64,000 bases of DNA from Kushneria aurantia DSM 21353 (GTDB taxonomy: Bacteria; Pseudomonadota; Gammaproteobacteria; Pseudomonadales; Halomonadaceae): positions 62,001 through 126,000 of the forward strand of contig NZ_KB907866.1 in NCBI RefSeq assembly GCF_000382245.1. The letters are read 5' to 3'. A program made the translations under genes and the position numbers. The notes under the pieces are model-generated. The model was not told the origin of the DNA, made no database searches, and was given only the letters and a program-made list of their open reading frames with translations. This document shows positions 39,107 through 45,378 of the stretch, one piece after another. Within the stretch, counting starts at the first letter, position 1; every line of letters begins with the position of its first letter.

Positions 39107-39970
39107 ATGGCCGATTCACATATCGACGACGACCTCGCATGGCAGCATCTTTTGCGCGCTCGCCATCATGACTGGCGCGATAGTGCCCACTATGGGGCAA
39201 CGCCACTCGCCTTCAGCGCCGACGGGCGCTGGCAGTCGGCAGCCGCAGTGAGTGCCGCGGCGAGCCAGCTGCTGGATATTATGACGCCGCTGGTAGCGCG
39301 CTCAACGCCACTGGTGATCGCGCAGTTCGGCCAGAGCCTGGATGGCCGTATCGCCACCGAGTGCGGCGACTCCTGCTATGTCACCGGGCATGAGGGGCTG
39401 GTACATCTGCACGCCCTGCGCGCGCTGGTCGATGCGGTGTTGGTGGGGGCCGGCACGGTGGACGCCGATAATCCGCAGTTGACCGTGCGTCATCGGCATG
39501 GAACCCATCCTGTGCGGGTGGTGCTTGATCCGCGCGGACGGCTGTCGCCCGATCGTTTCGTGTTCGACGACGACAGTGCCGCTACCCTGCATCTGGTCGA
39601 CAGCGCACAGCGCCAGCAGTGGCAGCGCCGCCATGATGAACGCGGCCGCAGGGTAGAGGTGCTGGGCCTTGAAGGCGGCGAGCAGGGCGTCGACCCACGC
39701 CGGATCGTGGCGCTGCTGGCCGAGCGCGGACTGACACGGCTGCTGGTCGAGGGCGGCGGGCTGACCATCTCGCGCTTTCTGCAGTACGGCTGTCTGCACC
39801 GGTTGCACTGCATGGTGTCGCCGATGCTGATCGGCTCCGGGCGGCCCACGCTGACGCTGCCGGTTATCGACCGCCTCGCGCATTCGCTGCGACCGCGGGC
39901 GCGCCATTTCACTCTCGGCAGTGATGTGCTTTTCGATCTTGATTTCGAAGACGAATCGCCTGCCGGCTGA
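39107..39970 (+). CDS. RibD C-terminal reductase domain protein
   Basis: A 287-residue protein with a DHFR-like pyrimidine reductase domain (about 65-280) and no deaminase domain. Seen: PLVIAQFGQSLDGRIAT, DAVLVGAGTVDADNPQLTVRHR, PVRVVLDPRGRLSPD and RLLVEGGGLTISRFL, all RibD reductase blocks. In riboflavin synthesis this domain reduces the ribosyl side chain of a pyrimidine phosphate. Here it ends 4 bases from a convergent operon containing a pterin-synthase-like gene, so it more likely acts in that pathway than in riboflavin synthesis. The first 60 residues are not recognised. Confidence 0.82.
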   Translation: MADSHIDDDLAWQHLLRARHHDWRDSAHYGATPLAFSADGRWQSAAAVSAAASQLLDIMTPLVARSTPLVIAQFGQSLDGRIATECGDSCYVTGHEGLVHLHALRALVDAVLVGAGTVDADNPQLTVRHRHGTHPVRVVLDPRGRLSPDRFVFDDDSAATLHLVDSAQRQQWQRRHDERGRRVEVLGLEGGEQGVDPRRIVALLAERGLTRLLVEGGGLTISRFLQYGCLHRLHCMVSPMLIGSGRPTLTLPVIDRLAHSLRPRARHFTLGSDVLFDLDFEDESPAG

Positions 39971-39974
39971 GGCT

Positions 39975-40958
39975 TCAGCGCTGGCGCCAGCGGCCCAGTA
40001 GTAGCCTGACCGCCCCGGGTAGACTGGAAACCAGCACCACTGCGCCGTAGGTCACCGAGATGGCCACGCCCTGCTGGGCGGGCAGGCCGGCAAGGATCCA
40101 CACCAGCGCCGCAGCGCTTTCACGAATGCCCCAACCGGCCACCGACAGCGGAATGGCCATCGCCATCAGTACCAGCGGTGTCAGCGCCAGCAGCGTCGTC
40201 ACCGGCAGAGGGGCGCCCAGCGCCCGGGCACAGCAGATAAACACCAGCACGTAGCTCGCCACGATCGCCAGCGATCCCGCCAATTGCCGCCGCCAGAGAC
40301 TACCCGCCCACAGGGTGCGGTGCAGGTCGTGGTGCAGGCCGGCCAGCCAGCGCGGCGCCATTCGCCACACAGCGGCAAATGCCAGTATCACCAGGGCGAC
40401 GCCAATCAGTGTCAGTATCAGCGGGCCGTTGGCGGCAAGGTCGCCTATTGCGCCGAAGCGGGCGGCAATGCCATCGCGCAGCGGTGCAAACAGCACCAGA
40501 CTGACCAGCGCCACCAGCGCCAGCGCCAGCTGGCCCGAGGCGCGTTCGATGACGACCGCGCGCAGTGCGGCGCGCCTTGACACCCCTTCGCTGCCGTGGC
40601 GCCAGGCACGCCCCAGGTCGCCGCTGACACCGCCGGGGAGTATCTGATTGAGAAAGGTGGCGAGGTAGTACTCGGCGACCGCCGTGCCGGGGCGCAGCTC
40701 CAGGCCCATATGGCACGCCGTCAGCCGCCAGCGCCAGGCCGAAAGCAGCACCTGCGGCACCGTCAGCGCCAGTGCCAGCGCCAGCCAGCCGGGGGAGAGC
40801 GATGCCAGCCGCGACAGCAGGGCGTTGTGATCGACCAGCAGCGCCACGCTGCCGAGCAGGACCAGCGACAGCAGCCAGCGCAGCAGTGGCGATCCCGGCG
40901 CGCCGCGCAGTGACGCCAACAGACGTCCGGCACTGCGCTGTGCACTGCGTTCGCTCAT
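39975..40958 (-). CDS. Flippase-like membrane protein (lysylphosphatidylglycerol synthase TM / UPF0104 family)
   Basis: A 327-residue integral membrane protein with about eight helices. Seen: the family segments AWRWRLTACHMGL, EYYLATFLNQILPGGVSGDLGRAWRHGSE, VVIERASGQLALAL and IPLSVAGWGIRESAAALVW. Relatives include AglD-like proteins and the membrane half of MprF, linked to moving lipid-attached sugars or lipids. It overlaps the methyltransferase gene by 4 bases and is the last gene of the operon, which hints that the pathway product is lipid-linked or exported. Confidence 0.8.
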   Translation of the reverse strand: MSERSAQRSAGRLLASLRGAPGSPLLRWLLSLVLLGSVALLVDHNALLSRLASLSPGWLALALALTVPQVLLSAWRWRLTACHMGLELRPGTAVAEYYLATFLNQILPGGVSGDLGRAWRHGSEGVSRRAALRAVVIERASGQLALALVALVSLVLFAPLRDGIAARFGAIGDLAANGPLILTLIGVALVILAFAAVWRMAPRWLAGLHHDLHRTLWAGSLWRRQLAGSLAIVASYVLVFICCARALGAPLPVTTLLALTPLVLMAMAIPLSVAGWGIRESAAALVWILAGLPAQQGVAISVTYGAVVLVSSLPGAVRLLLGRWRQR

Positions 40959-41842
40959 TGACGCCTGTCACCCTGCGGCAGGGCCAGCAGGTCCTGATGG
41001 CCGACCTCGATGTCGAGCGTACCATCCTTGATGGCGGCGCAGCGGCGGCTGTACCAGTGATCGAGCGCCTCGCGCCGTATCGGGGCCTGCTCCAGCGCCG
41101 CGTCATACCAGCCTGCTACCAGCGCGTGCATTAATTCGGCATGATTCGGCCGGCGGCTGTCGAGCTGCCAGGGGGCGGTCGCCACGCTCACCTCGAAGCC
41201 GCGTTCATTCAGCAGCCGCTGCGCCACGACCGGGGCATCGCAGCCCAGGGCACCGTTGAAGCCCTTGTCGCGGCGCTGGTGGCGGGCGATCAACTGCTGT
41301 ACGTCACGGTCCAGCGCCCGCATGGCGTCATCGCTGCCGGTGCGCTCGGCAAGACGGTTATCGCCGTCGATACTCAACGCCAGCAGCAGGGCGCAGCGGC
41401 GTTCGCCGCACCAGTCGGCCAGCGTCGTCAGCCAGCTTTCGGCGACCAGGTCGAGCAGCGCGGAGGCGGTCACCAGATCGGGGTGCGGCGGGGCGTGGCG
41501 AGCCAGCGCCTCTTCCAGTGCGACCAGATCGCAGCGTCGGGTTGTCAGTGCGGAGACCTGCGCGGCATGCGAGGTGTTGGCAGCGCTATCGAGCAGGGCG
41601 GCGTCCTGATCGAGCAGCCACCACTGCTGCTCGGACGTCAGCCGCGCACTCAGATAGCGCAGGTTGCTGCCGCTGCCGCAGCCCAGGTCAACGATCTGTA
41701 CGCTGTCGTCGCGCGCTTTCAGCCAGGGCGCGAGCCGTTTCAGCAGCGGGTGGCGGTCGCGGGCGTCGTGGTCGGCGGCTTCGCGCAGGGCCAGCCATTC
41801 GCCGCTGAAGTCGCTGTGCGGTGCCTGATCCTGATCGCTCAT
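40955..41842 (-). CDS. Class I SAM-dependent methyltransferase
   Basis: A 295-residue methyltransferase. Seen: the SAM motif VQIVDLGCGSGSNLRYLSARL at about 49-69, an acidic motif WLLDQDAALL, and HPDLVTASALLDLVAESWL. The acceptor is unknown. Overlaps of 4 bases with the genes on both sides show translational coupling with the glycosyltransferase and flippase-like genes, so it probably methylates the glycosylated intermediate or its sugar. Confidence 0.8.
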   Translation of the reverse strand: MSDQDQAPHSDFSGEWLALREAADHDARDRHPLLKRLAPWLKARDDSVQIVDLGCGSGSNLRYLSARLTSEQQWWLLDQDAALLDSAANTSHAAQVSALTTRRCDLVALEEALARHAPPHPDLVTASALLDLVAESWLTTLADWCGERRCALLLALSIDGDNRLAERTGSDDAMRALDRDVQQLIARHQRRDKGFNGALGCDAPVVAQRLLNERGFEVSVATAPWQLDSRRPNHAELMHALVAGWYDAALEQAPIRREALDHWYSRRCAAIKDGTLDIEVGHQDLLALPQGDRRQ

Positions 41843-42969
41843 GGCTGCTCCATCCTGCGCTGGCGCACGATGCGGCCCTGTGCCACCAGGCGTGCCAGGG
41901 CGTGGTGGAAAAGCCGCGCCGCACTCGACCAGTCGGCAAACGTCTCGCGGGCGGCGATCGCCCCCTCGCGCAACTTTTGATAGCGCTCGCGGCTTTTAAC
42001 GTCGCCGCCAAGCAGCGATGCCAGCGCCTCGCGCAGCGCTTCGCTGTCTCCCGGTGCGATCTGCAGGCCGGCACCCGCCGGCAGGGTATCGGCCAGCGCG
42101 CCACCATGGGTGGTGACCACCGGCAGGCCGTGGGCCAGCGCCTCGCTGACCACCATGCCGTAGCCTTCGTAAAAGGAGGGCAGTACGAAAACGTCGGCCG
42201 CCTGCCAGAAGGCTTCCAGCTGTTCGAAGGGCAGGGCGCCGTGCAGGCTGATTCGCGCTTCAAGCCGATGGCTGGTGATCAGATCGTGCAGGCGCGTGGC
42301 ATAGGCCGTGTCGCGTTCGCTGTCGCCGATCAGGTCGCAGTGCCAGCCCTGCTGTGCCAGTCCCGCCAGCGCCTCGACCAGTAGATGCTGGCCCTTGCGC
42401 GGAATCAGCGTGGCGATGCACAAAAGCCGCGGCGGGTTGCCCGCTGCAGGCGACAGCGCCACCGGCTCGACGCCCGGCTCGACCACATCGATACGCGCGT
42501 CATCGATACCCAGCTCGATCAGCCGGCGGCGGGTGAAGGGGCTGGTGACGATGATGCCGGCCACCGCGTCGAGGGTCTGACACTCCAGCGTCAGCAGCCG
42601 TTCGCGCTGCGCATCGCTCATGCCGGTTTCGTCGCCCAGCGGATGGTGAATCAACGCCACCAGATCGAGGCGCTGGCGGTGTACGGCGACAACTTCGGGC
42701 ATGGCGCTTGCCGCCAGGCCGTCGAGCACCACCGTGGCACCGTCGGTGCAGCCGCCCAGGGCGCGCTGTAGCGACTCACGGGCGATGTCGTCGGGCAGCG
42801 GAAAACGGCCGTCGAGGCCGATCACCTCGACCTGCACGCCGAGCGCCTGCAGCCCCGCGACGACATGGCGGTCGTAGAGATAGCCGCCGGTGAGCTGATC
42901 GAGGCGCCCGGCGATGATCAGGGTGAGCCGCTTCGGACCGGTGTCTTTCTCTGCCGCGCCTTCCTTCAC
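41839..42969 (-). CDS. Glycosyltransferase family 4 protein
   Basis: A 376-residue GT-B glycosyltransferase. Seen: an N-terminal acceptor domain beginning [23 protein letters not shown], the donor-domain start [22 protein letters not shown], and the nucleotide-sugar motif [25 protein letters not shown] with the E-x7-E arrangement. It should add a sugar from an activated donor to a small acceptor, probably the product of the PTPS-like and reductase enzymes encoded beside it. 4-base overlaps on both sides. Confidence 0.83.
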
Positions 42970-43364
42970 AGCTCACCCTCGTAGCTGGCCCAGGCGATGT
43001 GCGATTCGTGCAGGGTGATCAGCATGGCACTCAGGCCGTGACCGCCTTCGCCGAGGCGGTCGGCGGTAATGGCGTCGACCAGCCGATCGAAAATCACTTT
43101 CGCCATGAATTCGGTGGTGGTGTTGTGACCCTTGAAGGCCTCGACTTCGTCAAGGTTTTGCATGTTGATCTCGCCCAGCACGGCGGCCAGAGCCTGGCTG
43201 GCGAGACCGATATCGACCACCAGGCCGTGCTCGTCGAGCTGCGCGCGGCGGAAGGTGACATCCACCACATAGGTGGCGCCGTGCAGCTGTTGCGCCGGGC
43301 CGAAGATCTCGCCGCTGAAGCTGTGGGCGATCATGACGTGGTCGCGAACGGTAAGGCTGAACAT
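42966..43364 (-). CDS. 6-pyruvoyl-tetrahydropterin synthase / QueD-like protein, diverged active site
   Basis: A 132-residue T-fold protein of the PTPS/6-carboxytetrahydropterin synthase family. Seen: H14 in MIAHSF and H28 in QLHGATY as zinc ligands, VVDIG (position of V-V-D-F), NTTTEF (position of N-P-T-x-E-N) and E120 in [11 protein letters not shown]. The third zinc ligand, His in the usual H-G-H, is A30, and the catalytic Cys before it is absent. It may therefore do a different reaction on a related pteridine or pyrimidine. GGGAGCTC precedes the ATG. Second gene of the operon. Confidence 0.8.
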
Positions 43365-43383
43365 AAGAGCTCCCTGGTCGGAA

Positions 43384-44382
43384 TCAGGCGGTTTGCAGAT
43401 AGCGGATACGGTGGCAGAGCGCACCCGGTCGGGCGGTCAGTTCGGCCATGGTAGCGGGCAGATCGTCGAAGCCACTCTCGCCGTCGATCAGTGCGTCAAG
43501 GCGGGCGTCATCGAGCAGTGCCAGCGCCTGCGCCATGCGCTCGGCGAAGCCGCGGCGGGCGGCGCGCGCCGGGGAAACGGTGCCCACCTGGCTGGCACGC
43601 AGGGTCAGTCGGCGCGAGTGAAAGGCCTCGCCCAGCGGCAGGCTGATCGACTGGCTGGCGAACCAGCTCATCTCGATCACGCTGGCTTCCCGGCCGGCCA
43701 GCTGCAGCGCGCGGGCCAGCCCGGCCTCGCTGCCGCTGGCGTGAATCACCACATCGCACTCGTCAGCGGCCTGCTCGGGAGGGCGAAAGTCGAGCGCCAG
43801 CGATCGGGCCAGGGCGGCACGCTCCGGGTTGATATCGATCAGCTCGACGCGGCTGCCGGGCATGGCGTTGCACAGGTGGGCCATCAACGTGCCGACCACA
43901 CCGGCGCCGATCACGGCGATGCGATCGCCGATGCGCGGTGCGGCGTCCCACAGGCCGTTGAGGGCGGTCTCCATGTTGGCTCCCAGCACCGCGCGGCTGG
44001 CCGGTACTCCGGGCGGCAGCGGTGTGACCATGGCAGCCGGCACCACGTAGCGCTGCTGGTGCGGGTGCAGACAGAACACTTCGCGACCCAGCAGTGACGG
44101 CGGGCCGGCTTCGACCACGCCGACGCTTGCGTAGCCGTACTTGACCGGAGCCGGGAAGTCGCCCTGCTGAAAGGGCGCGCGCATGCGCTGATATTCGCTT
44201 TCGGGTACCCGACCGTGAAAAACGGTGGTTTCGGTGCCGCGGCTGACGGCGCTGTAAAGCGCGCGCACGCTGACCTCGTCGTCGCCCGGCGGCGCCAGTA
44301 TCTCGCGGCGCAGGCTGCCGTGTCCCGGTGATTCGATCCAGAAAGCGAGGGTCTGCTGCTGTGGGGCGGTCCCTGAAGACAT
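43384..44382 (-). CDS. Zinc-type alcohol dehydrogenase family protein, BchC-like, without the catalytic zinc ligands
   Basis: A 332-residue medium-chain dehydrogenase. Seen: [35 protein letters not shown] where classic enzymes have G-H-E, and the Rossmann motif [16 protein letters not shown]. The usual Cys and His ligands of the catalytic zinc are replaced, as in BchC-type enzymes that begin S-R-G-T-E. It should oxidise or reduce a hydroxyl group of the pathway intermediate. The start at 44382 follows AGGGAG. It is the first gene of a five-gene operon reading towards 39975. Confidence 0.82.
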
Positions 44383-44450
44383 AAGGCTCCCTGCGTTCAT
44401 CCCTGATGGTGGCGCTGAAAGTCGAAGCGACAACGGTTACCGAACGACTA

Positions 44451-44476
44451 CGCTATGATGACAGTTCATCATAGCG
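44451..44476. promoter_or_regulatory. Perfect 11-bp inverted repeat, probable operator
   Basis: Arms CGCTATGATGA and TCATCATAGCG with a 4-base spacer (CAGT), between the divergent dehydrogenase (start 44382) and phosphatidyltransferase (start 44638) genes. The length and perfection fit a dimeric regulator controlling both directions. No regulator gene is adjacent. Confidence 0.7.
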
Positions 44477-44637
44477 CGTCCGGCATGGTACCGACCTGTG
44501 ATGACGTTTGCGTCCATCCCTTGCGATCGAATAAAGGGGTGGCAGCGCCAGTGCCGATGCGCACAGGGCTGATTTTCGAGCAGACGCCACGCGATAGAAA
44601 AAGTGGTGCGTCGCCGGCGCTTCAGGGAGGTAGCGAC

Positions 44638-45378
44638 ATGAGTGACCGCAATTCGGTGCCGCAGCGCTGCGTACGCCATTGGCCGCCCGCAATCGGTGAG
44701 CTGGGCGTCGGGCTGGGGGCATTGCTGGTGCTGGTCGAGGTACTGCGTCTGGGCGTTCGCGTGCCGGCGCTTTTGCACCTCAGCGCCGCGGCGGTCTATC
44801 TCGCCATTGCCGCACTGGTGGCCTATGGCGGGCCGGCGCGTGCCGGTGGATTGGGCTGGGCCAATCGTGTGACGCTTGCACGCGCCGTGCTGATCGCGCT
44901 GGTTGCCGGTACGTTGCCGCTGCCGCACTTCATTAATGATCACCATCTGCTGCTGTTCGTGGTAGCGCTGGTGGCGCTGTGCATGGATGGCCTTGACGGT
45001 CTGGTGGCGCGCCATACCGACAGCGCCACCCATTTTGGTGCTCGCTTCGACATGGAGCTCGACGCCTTTTTCATTCTTGCGCTGTGTCTGCTGCTGGTGG
45101 TGCAGAGCAAGGCCGGTCCATGGGTCATCGCTATTGGTGCGATGCGTTATCTGTTCGTGCTGGCGGCGCAGTACTGGCACTGGCTCGAGGCCGAGCTGCC
45201 GGTCAGCTATCGGCGCAAGACAGTCTGTGTGATCCAGCTCGGCGCGCTGATGCTGTGCCTGCTGCCGGGCGTAACGCCGCCGCTGACCACTGTGCTGCTG
45301 GCGGCGGCGCTGGTAGCGCTGCTGCTCTCCTTCCTGCTGGATATTATCTGGCTGCGCCGTCGCTCGCATATACGCTGA
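44638..45378 (+). CDS. CDP-alcohol phosphatidyltransferase family protein
   Basis: A 246-residue membrane enzyme with about six helices. Seen: the complete family motif D-G-x2-A-R-x8-G-x3-D-x3-D in MDGLDGLVARHTDSATHFGARFDMELD. Members move a phosphoalcohol from a CDP-activated donor to an alcohol, as in phospholipid head-group synthesis. AGGGAGG precedes the ATG at 44638. It faces the dehydrogenase gene across a perfect palindrome and so is probably co-regulated with the pteridine-like cluster, where it may attach the product to a lipid. Confidence 0.85.
   Translation: MSDRNSVPQRCVRHWPPAIGELGVGLGALLVLVEVLRLGVRVPALLHLSAAAVYLAIAALVAYGGPARAGGLGWANRVTLARAVLIALVAGTLPLPHFINDHHLLLFVVALVALCMDGLDGLVARHTDSATHFGARFDMELDAFFILALCLLLVVQSKAGPWVIAIGAMRYLFVLAAQYWHWLEAELPVSYRRKTVCVIQLGALMLCLLPGVTPPLTTVLLAAALVALLLSFLLDIIWLRRRSHIR

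Follow-up and report, generated by a model that had tools for sequence, protein, structure and literature searches.

A gene set conserved around a PTPS-fold protein in Kushneria aurantia and a candidate pathway to a pteridine or pyrimidine bearing sugar and methyl groups

Seven neighbouring genes at positions 39107–45378 of the window (the whole stretch of DNA analysed here, 64,000 nucleotides of the Kushneria aurantia DSM 21353 genome) are part of one conserved gene set. They comprise an operon-like run on the minus strand and two plus-strand genes, and encode a RibD_C-type reductase, a medium-chain (MDR) dehydrogenase, a protein of the PTPS fold, a GT4 glycosyltransferase, a methyltransferase, an LPG_synthase_TM-type membrane protein (LPG-TM) and a CDP-alcohol phosphatidyltransferase. 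We lean towards the view that the set constitutes a pathway from a GTP-derived diaminopyrimidine to a glycosylated, methylated compound, its reactions, their order and its product being proposed from sequence comparisons. The pathway would branch from early riboflavin or pterin metabolism and yield a glycosylated, methylated pteridine or pyrimidine, with ring chemistry and end product that we infer. A product of this kind had been suggested in an initial annotation of the window; the underlying gene set proved to be a single conserved unit, and formation of a pteridine ring stays a conjectural part of the suggestion.

Conservation of the gene set in three phyla

We compared 110 loci from relatives, the window's locus not being counted: 18 from the window's own phylum set (299 Pseudomonadota genomes, the window's own genome included), 80 from named genomes and 12 further loci (nine from Gemmatimonadota and three from distant actinomycetes). 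The scan of named genomes returned at least 577 relatives, and the best 80 of these at least 577 were used as loci. By group, the 110 comprise 44 Actinomycetota, 10 Gemmatimonadota and 56 others. A gene was counted as a neighbour if it matched at E <= 1e-5 and lay no more than 9.5 kb from the PTPS-like gene.

Within the phylum set, a PTPS match at E <= 1e-4 is present in 91 of the 299 genomes, and the PTPS-like gene itself, at 51% identity or more, in 19, the next-best PTPS match reaching 34%. The dehydrogenase is matched at E <= 1e-20 in the same 19 genomes and in no others, and its gene adjoins the PTPS-like gene in the window and in all 18 other carriers. The dehydrogenase match contains an internal stop in two of the 19 (G217 and G091) and is split into two pieces in G217; these genes may be broken or mis-sequenced. 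All 18 other loci hold the dehydrogenase and GT4 genes, and 16/18 hold the methyltransferase and, likewise, RibD_C; at one of the two loci that miss RibD_C (L037) the contig end is reached.

Conservation beyond close relatives had been set as a test beforehand, and the set was found to span Pseudomonadota, Actinomycetota and Gemmatimonadota. Among the best 80 of the named-genome loci, the dehydrogenase occurs in 80, GT4 and the methyltransferase in 79 each, the CDP-alcohol phosphatidyltransferase in 75, LPG-TM in 72 and RibD_C in 45. Their hosts include Halomonas, Kushneria, Salinicola, Marinobacter, Variovorax, Thauera and Thioalkalivibrio as well as Streptomyces, Micromonospora, Amycolatopsis, Actinomadura, Nocardiopsis and others, and the nearest named relative among the matches listed is the PTPS-like protein of Kushneria pakistanensis (74%). 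With E <= 1e-15 as the threshold, the phylum to which a Streptomyces genome belongs yields PTPS-like matches in 11 of 246 genomes (61% identity or more in seven, 35–49% in four), and that of a Gemmatimonadales genome in 10 of 121.

Over the 110 loci, the dehydrogenase is a neighbour in 110, GT4 in 109 and the methyltransferase in 103; all three lie near the PTPS-like gene in 102 loci, drawn from the three phyla, and the order and strand of the dehydrogenase, PTPS-like and GT4 genes are kept in 107. The membrane genes follow (CDP-alcohol phosphatidyltransferase 89, LPG-TM 86), together with RibD_C (71) and two additional neighbours that are not in the window, GTP cyclohydrolase II (GCHII, 65) and a creatininase-family gene (63). 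Co-occurrence of GCHII, a check proposed in the initial annotation, is thus frequent, and 99 loci have one or more of RibD_C, GCHII and creatininase. RibD_C is found nearby in 11/44 actinomycete, 9/10 Gemmatimonadota and 51/56 other loci. Pairwise locus distances correlate across seven families (Spearman 0.39 to 0.84), as they should if the families move as a unit, though shared species history would have the same effect. Two pseudomonadotal loci from large genomes (L043 and L044) keep the dehydrogenase, PTPS, RibD_C and GCHII genes; in both, GT4 lies upstream of the dehydrogenase gene and the methyltransferase is unmatched. In L044 the dehydrogenase match comes in two pieces.

Comparison of these loci delimits a common core, which on present alignments is an oxidoreductase, the PTPS-like protein, and sugar and usually methyl transfer. 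Loci L167 and L168 keep RibD_C, dehydrogenase, PTPS and GT4 genes, and L166 keeps dehydrogenase, PTPS and GT4 only. Neither CDP-alcohol phosphatidyltransferase nor LPG-TM was matched in L166–L168, nor in any of seven loci of one Pseudomonadota group (L041, L042, L045 and L047–L050) that were chosen by eye, post hoc, for a divergent OpgH-like gene. Because of these ten loci, we regard the membrane and envelope genes as lineage-dependent. The initial annotation had added that the product is perhaps lipid-anchored; both genes are common, but the loci that have neither suggest that lipid attachment and flipping are probably accessory and that a lipid anchor is probably not essential.

The PTPS-like protein, its partners and their gene layout

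Among proteins of solved structure, the PTPS-like protein is most closely related to SCO6650 of Streptomyces coelicolor (PDB 3d7j; phmmer 2.3e-53 over residues 1–130), and the FGPAQ-x2-HGAT motif of the SCO6650-type family is present. We tallied residues over 111 sequences of the family, the window's included, aligned to the solved PTPS structures 2g64 and 1b66. The catalytic Cys position is Ala in 111/111, the catalytic His position is His in 0/111, and the paired Asp position is Asp in 5/111. The zinc-binding His14 and His28 occur in 111/111; the third zinc His is Ala in 109/111 and is kept only in L167 and L168, which retain HGH. The pterin-anchoring Glu120 is invariant (111/111). The roles given here to the zinc His, catalytic Cys and Asp–His, and pterin Glu residues are those that we take the PTPS literature to assign.

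Eight QueD-like proteins encoded by the same 299 genomes provide a contrast: the Cys is kept in seven (L026 being the exception), and HGH and DH in all eight. In the tree they fall on a long branch outside the SCO6650-type family, with separating support of 0.85–0.99; L166–L168 lie nearest the QueD side, and the QueD-like branch adjoins L167 and L168. Because the catalytic Cys and His are lost across the 111 sequences, the protein should not be named QueD or PTPS. The "PTPS/QueD-like" label of the initial annotation holds for the fold family and the pterin Glu, but fails for the catalytic Cys and His and, mostly, for the third zinc His. We read this residue pattern as that of a constrained new function rather than of decay.

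In the reductase, RibD_C spans residues 68–250 and is the sole Pfam domain, which upholds its earlier description as a RibD-type reductase without a deaminase; its best PDB match is a 2,5-diamino-6-ribosylamino-4(3H)-pyrimidinone 5'-phosphate (DARoPP) reductase (1.7e-24), and the columns D79, R105, D121 and EGG are conserved in the 72 aligned sequences. The two glutamates of the GT4 E-x7-E motif are found in 109/110 and 108/110 aligned sequences, the window's included. In the window and in 88 of 89 relatives, the CDP-alcohol protein carries DxxDGxxA...GxxxDxxxD, the catalytic motif of CDP-alcohol phosphatidyltransferases. GT4 is fused with a methyltransferase domain in L167, a distant relative, which ties sugar and methyl transfer together. 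The methyltransferase itself gave an AlphaFold2 model with a pLDDT of 93.5, for which the first 50 Foldseek matches are methyltransferases of varied substrates.

The dehydrogenase had been called BchC-like, and this likeness is loose: the BchC model TIGR01202 scores far below its cut-off (54.5 against 291.25 bits), and ADH_zinc_N is also below threshold (22.9 bits, cut-off 31.8). It is apparently a zinc-less MDR dehydrogenase, since there is no Cys among the 48 invariant columns of its alignment; its model (pLDDT 90.9) finds structures of the alcohol-dehydrogenase fold. The LPG-TM protein was also compared with the lysyl-PG synthase MprF, which has a synthase domain besides its transmembrane region; it corresponds to the transmembrane region only (327 aa; MprF 23.4 bits, cut-off 600).

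The presence of all seven genes, the 4-base overlaps between four of them and the perfect palindrome between the divergent genes are as first described, and Pfam and NCBIfam assign the families (Table 1). The overlaps (40955–40958, 41839–41842 and 42966–42969) join the PTPS-like, GT4, methyltransferase and LPG-TM genes. Judged by homologue starts, the dehydrogenase probably starts at 44382 rather than 44433 and the CDP-alcohol gene probably at 44638 rather than 44455, which would leave a 255-bp intergenic region holding the palindrome. The same palindromic sequence is absent in the 98 relatives scanned, which speaks against a conserved operator; dyads of other sequence with 7–10 bp arms occur in a number of them. 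The Salinicola loci L058, L059 and L062 have a different dyad, ATTGTACA-N5-TGTACAAT, in the divergent region upstream of the dehydrogenase, hinting at regulators specific to the lineage.

Table 1. Features of the gene set in the window, with the model scores behind each assignment.
Feature	Position	Strand	Basis
RibD_C-type reductase without deaminase domain (P0001)	39107..39970	+	Pfam RibD_C 129.9 bits
LPG_synthase_TM / flippase-like membrane protein (P0002)	39975..40958	-	Pfam 139.5 bits, cut-off 33.4
Class I SAM-dependent methyltransferase (P0003)	40955..41842	-	Methyltransf_25 28.7 bits, cut-off 27
GT4 glycosyltransferase (P0004)	41839..42969	-	Glycos_transf_1 102.7 bits
PTPS-fold protein, SCO6650 type (P0005)	42966..43364	-	PF01242 PTPS 84.1 bits, cut-off 22.4
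BchC-like medium-chain dehydrogenase (P0006)	43384..44433	-	TIGR01202 54.5 bits, below cut-off
CDP-alcohol phosphatidyltransferase (P0007)	44455..45378	+	Pfam CDP-OH_P_transf 65.9 bits
Perfect inverted repeat, possible operator	44451..44476	.	11-bp arms, 4-nt spacer, divergent intergenic region

A candidate pathway and its alternatives

GCHII, the creatininase-family protein and RibD_C adjoin one another in many relatives, and the first two partners point to a GTP-derived diaminopyrimidine as input. BrbF, a creatininase-family protein, is described as the AFRPP formamidase of the early riboflavin steps (PMC9478397). The window's own genome has two GCHII matches, namely an ordinary RibA and a 405-aa open frame (118.7 bits), and the organism could use the ordinary RibA for this input. 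The product of an ordinary RibA is already deformylated. The cluster GCHIIs were compared at the position of Tyr105 of E. coli RibA. There, the 31 actinomycete enzymes have Met (22), His (5), Tyr (3, from Micromonospora) or Gln (1), and 27 others have Tyr (26) or Ile (1). SCO6655, with Met at this position, reportedly forms the formylated product and stops there.

We propose that GCHII, either the cluster's own or, in the window's organism, the housekeeping RibA, would open GTP to give AFRPP or DARoPP, and that the creatininase-family protein, where present, would take off the formyl group. RibD_C would then reduce the ribosyl chain of DARoPP to give a ribityl compound, whose side chain the MDR dehydrogenase may oxidise to a ketone. 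The PTPS-fold protein, which retains the pterin-recognising Glu though not the catalytic site, would hold the substrate while the ring closes or while some other non-canonical step takes place; in the former case, the 5-amino group would close on the ketone in the PTPS-fold pocket, giving a neopterin-like dihydropterin. Glycosylation by GT4 and methylation by the methyltransferase would follow. In most, though not all, lineages the CDP-alcohol transferase may join a phospholipid to the compound or to one of its precursors, and LPG-TM may move the compound across the inner membrane. A bolder version of this scheme, a multi-phylum route that uses GCHII and a remodelled PTPS fold to place a phospholipid-linked or exported glycosylated, methylated pterin outside the inner membrane, is tentative and on present evidence unlikely. 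If true, such a dedicated envelope-pterin route would, in some lineages, be partnered by YceI, cytochrome b561 and OpgG/H-type proteins.

Several observations weigh against the proposed pathway. On the input side, no creatininase match is found in the window's own genome, and the 405-aa GCHII-matching frame has neither of the two Cys-site motifs for which it was scanned by script. The creatininase-family proteins score best with MftE, below its cut-off (131.7 and 106.6 bits for two proteins, cut-off 172), and the ArfB model gives 37.9 bits (cut-off 180) for the creatininase of L130 and no match at E <= 1e-5 for that of L053. Going by the alignment, a proteobacterial GCHII with Tyr105 (26/27) should need no formamidase. 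RibD_C, GCHII and creatininase are all unmatched in 11 of the 110 loci, some of which lie on short contigs, and eight of the 11 actinomycete RibD_C matches reach only 28–38% identity and are perhaps housekeeping RibD. L167 and L168 each have a FolB (dihydroneopterin aldolase) gene next to RibD_C, but their genomes have no other, and it may simply be the housekeeping gene. The window's reductase scores about equally with TIGR01508 (108.6 bits, cut-off 186.45) and with the bifunctional RibD model TIGR00326 (107.9 bits, cut-off 156.35), and neither PDB relatives nor fold matches fix a substrate for the dehydrogenase and methyltransferase.

The neighbouring envelope genes lend themselves to another interpretation, that of an envelope lipid or glucan pathway. 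In it, GT4, the CDP-alcohol transferase and LPG-TM, together with FkbM, sulfatase-type transferase and OpgG/OpgH-like genes, would make a periplasmic glycolipid or a glucan decoration, and RibD_C, the PTPS-like protein and the MDR dehydrogenase would have been recruited to sugar or nucleotide-sugar chemistry that has nothing to do with pterins. FkbM methyltransferase (27 of 110 loci), OpgH-like (22), OpgG-like (21) and sulfatase-type transferase (20) genes are found as neighbours; the FkbM, OpgG/H-like and transferase genes occur in Gemmatimonadota and Pseudomonadota, and the lack of an assigned substrate for the dehydrogenase and methyltransferase families suits this reading. Yet the envelope genes are unmatched in L166–L168 and OpgG/H genes are found in 0/44 actinomycete loci, the conjunction of GCHII, creatininase and RibD_C points to a GTP-derived pyrimidine route, and the pterin-contact Glu is invariant; we judge the interpretation unlikely.

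Cytochrome b561 is a neighbour in 12 of the 110 loci (L157, L159, L160, L161, L164, L165, L041, L042 and L047–L050), among them six of the seven OpgH-selected loci. Its hosts are Gemmatimonadota and one Pseudomonadota group; YceI, a neighbour in 24 of the 110, recurs in another Pseudomonadota group, at 23/49 loci. In E. coli, the YceI and cytochrome b561 families are neighbours. The window also contains an OpgG/MdoG-like gene at 375–2039, about 37 kb from the cluster (match 543–2012, 36% identity to a Halomonas sp. QHL1 protein, E 1e-78). Elsewhere in the window's own genome (G000) there are two PF00174 (sulfite-oxidase-fold) matches, at C28:22383-22802 and C11:933-1409 (L169 and L170), which came up in a brief look for periplasmic partners of the PruR type.

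The product might instead be a ribityl-pyrimidine or a lumazine- or flavin-type compound that never becomes a pteridine, with the PTPS-like protein merely binding or channelling it. This would account for a PTPS-like protein devoid of known catalytic residues, and family knowledge has RibD_C proteins normally making ribityl-aminopyrimidines. The location of FolB beside two minimal clusters argues the other way, as does the fact that RibH and RibE are not among the ten neighbour proteins identified with Pfam, no direct search for them having been made. We think this a rather improbable outcome, but the argument for the proposed pathway is slightly weakened because the RibD_C model scores tie and because RibH and RibE had no direct search.

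Synthesis of tetrahydrobiopterin, queuosine or folate by a normal PTPS, QueD or PTPS-III agrees with the Pfam PTPS match and with a weak score against the QueD model (42 bits, cut-off 89.25), and is nonetheless rejected, as a very improbable explanation, for the loss of the catalytic residues described above and for the placement outside the family of the eight QueD-like proteins from the same genomes. That these are separate housekeeping enzymes, a possibility the initial annotation had left standing, is unlikely since the PTPS-like and dehydrogenase genes share the same 19/299 genomes, and a chance neighbourhood of such genes, common as each family is by itself, has a negligible probability, refuted as it is by this sharing and by a gene order conserved across three phyla.

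Comparison with known systems

We found no description of this gene set as a pathway in the literature, in which openly licensed papers only were considered; pathways to GTP-derived rings are known, and the present one, as far as found, is not among them. Nothing relevant to this set was found in the genome report of Halomonas malpeensis (PMC7814019) or in PMC1971073. A set held together in three phyla implies a useful small molecule, one that is unnamed in the literature found.

The PTPS/QueD proteins (COG0720), for which PMC5041015 gives the subgroups PTPS-I to -III, share the fold family and the pterin-contact Glu with the family described here; the catalytic Cys and His and the third zinc His are theirs and are lost in this family, the zinc His in 109 of 111 sequences. 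The GCHII, creatininase-family and RibD_C trio of relatives resembles the early riboflavin steps with BrbF or ArfB, but here RibD_C comes without a deaminase, the glycosyltransferase, methyltransferase and membrane genes are linked, and the creatininase scores below the ArfB cut-off. Mycofactocin is another small-molecule pathway that combines a creatininase-family protein with a glycosyltransferase. The likeness is by analogy only: the cluster creatininase is closest to MftE, below its cut-off, and the families here are those of pterin and riboflavin metabolism, in contrast with the modified peptide of mycofactocin.

Glycosylated pterins have precedents. The Chlorobium enzyme CtPGT is a pteridine glycosyltransferase that acts on tetrahydrobiopterin (PMC5683033), and pterin glycosides are reported from cyanobacteria (PMC13259868). 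A glycosylated pterin would be the product type in common with pteridine glycosyltransferases such as CtPGT, whereas on the pterin side the present set has RibD_C, GCHII and a PTPS of non-canonical type.

Two members of the set, SCO6650 and SCO6655, have reportedly been studied singly as proteins; SCO6650, of the same family as the PTPS-like protein of the window, is said in its structure report to lack the zinc and the catalytic triad and to have no PTPS activity. No pathway assignment for either was found in the literature. The order in Streptomyces loci such as L092 (PTPS, GT4, methyltransferase, LPG-TM, creatininase, GCHII) would fit the tag spacing from SCO6650 to SCO6655. SCO6655 is listed as a GTP cyclohydrolase II in PMC2853524, where it belongs to a group of S. 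coelicolor genes that show anticorrelation between expression and predicted flux; most genes of that group go up in stationary phase. The pathway proposed here would offer a home to both proteins.

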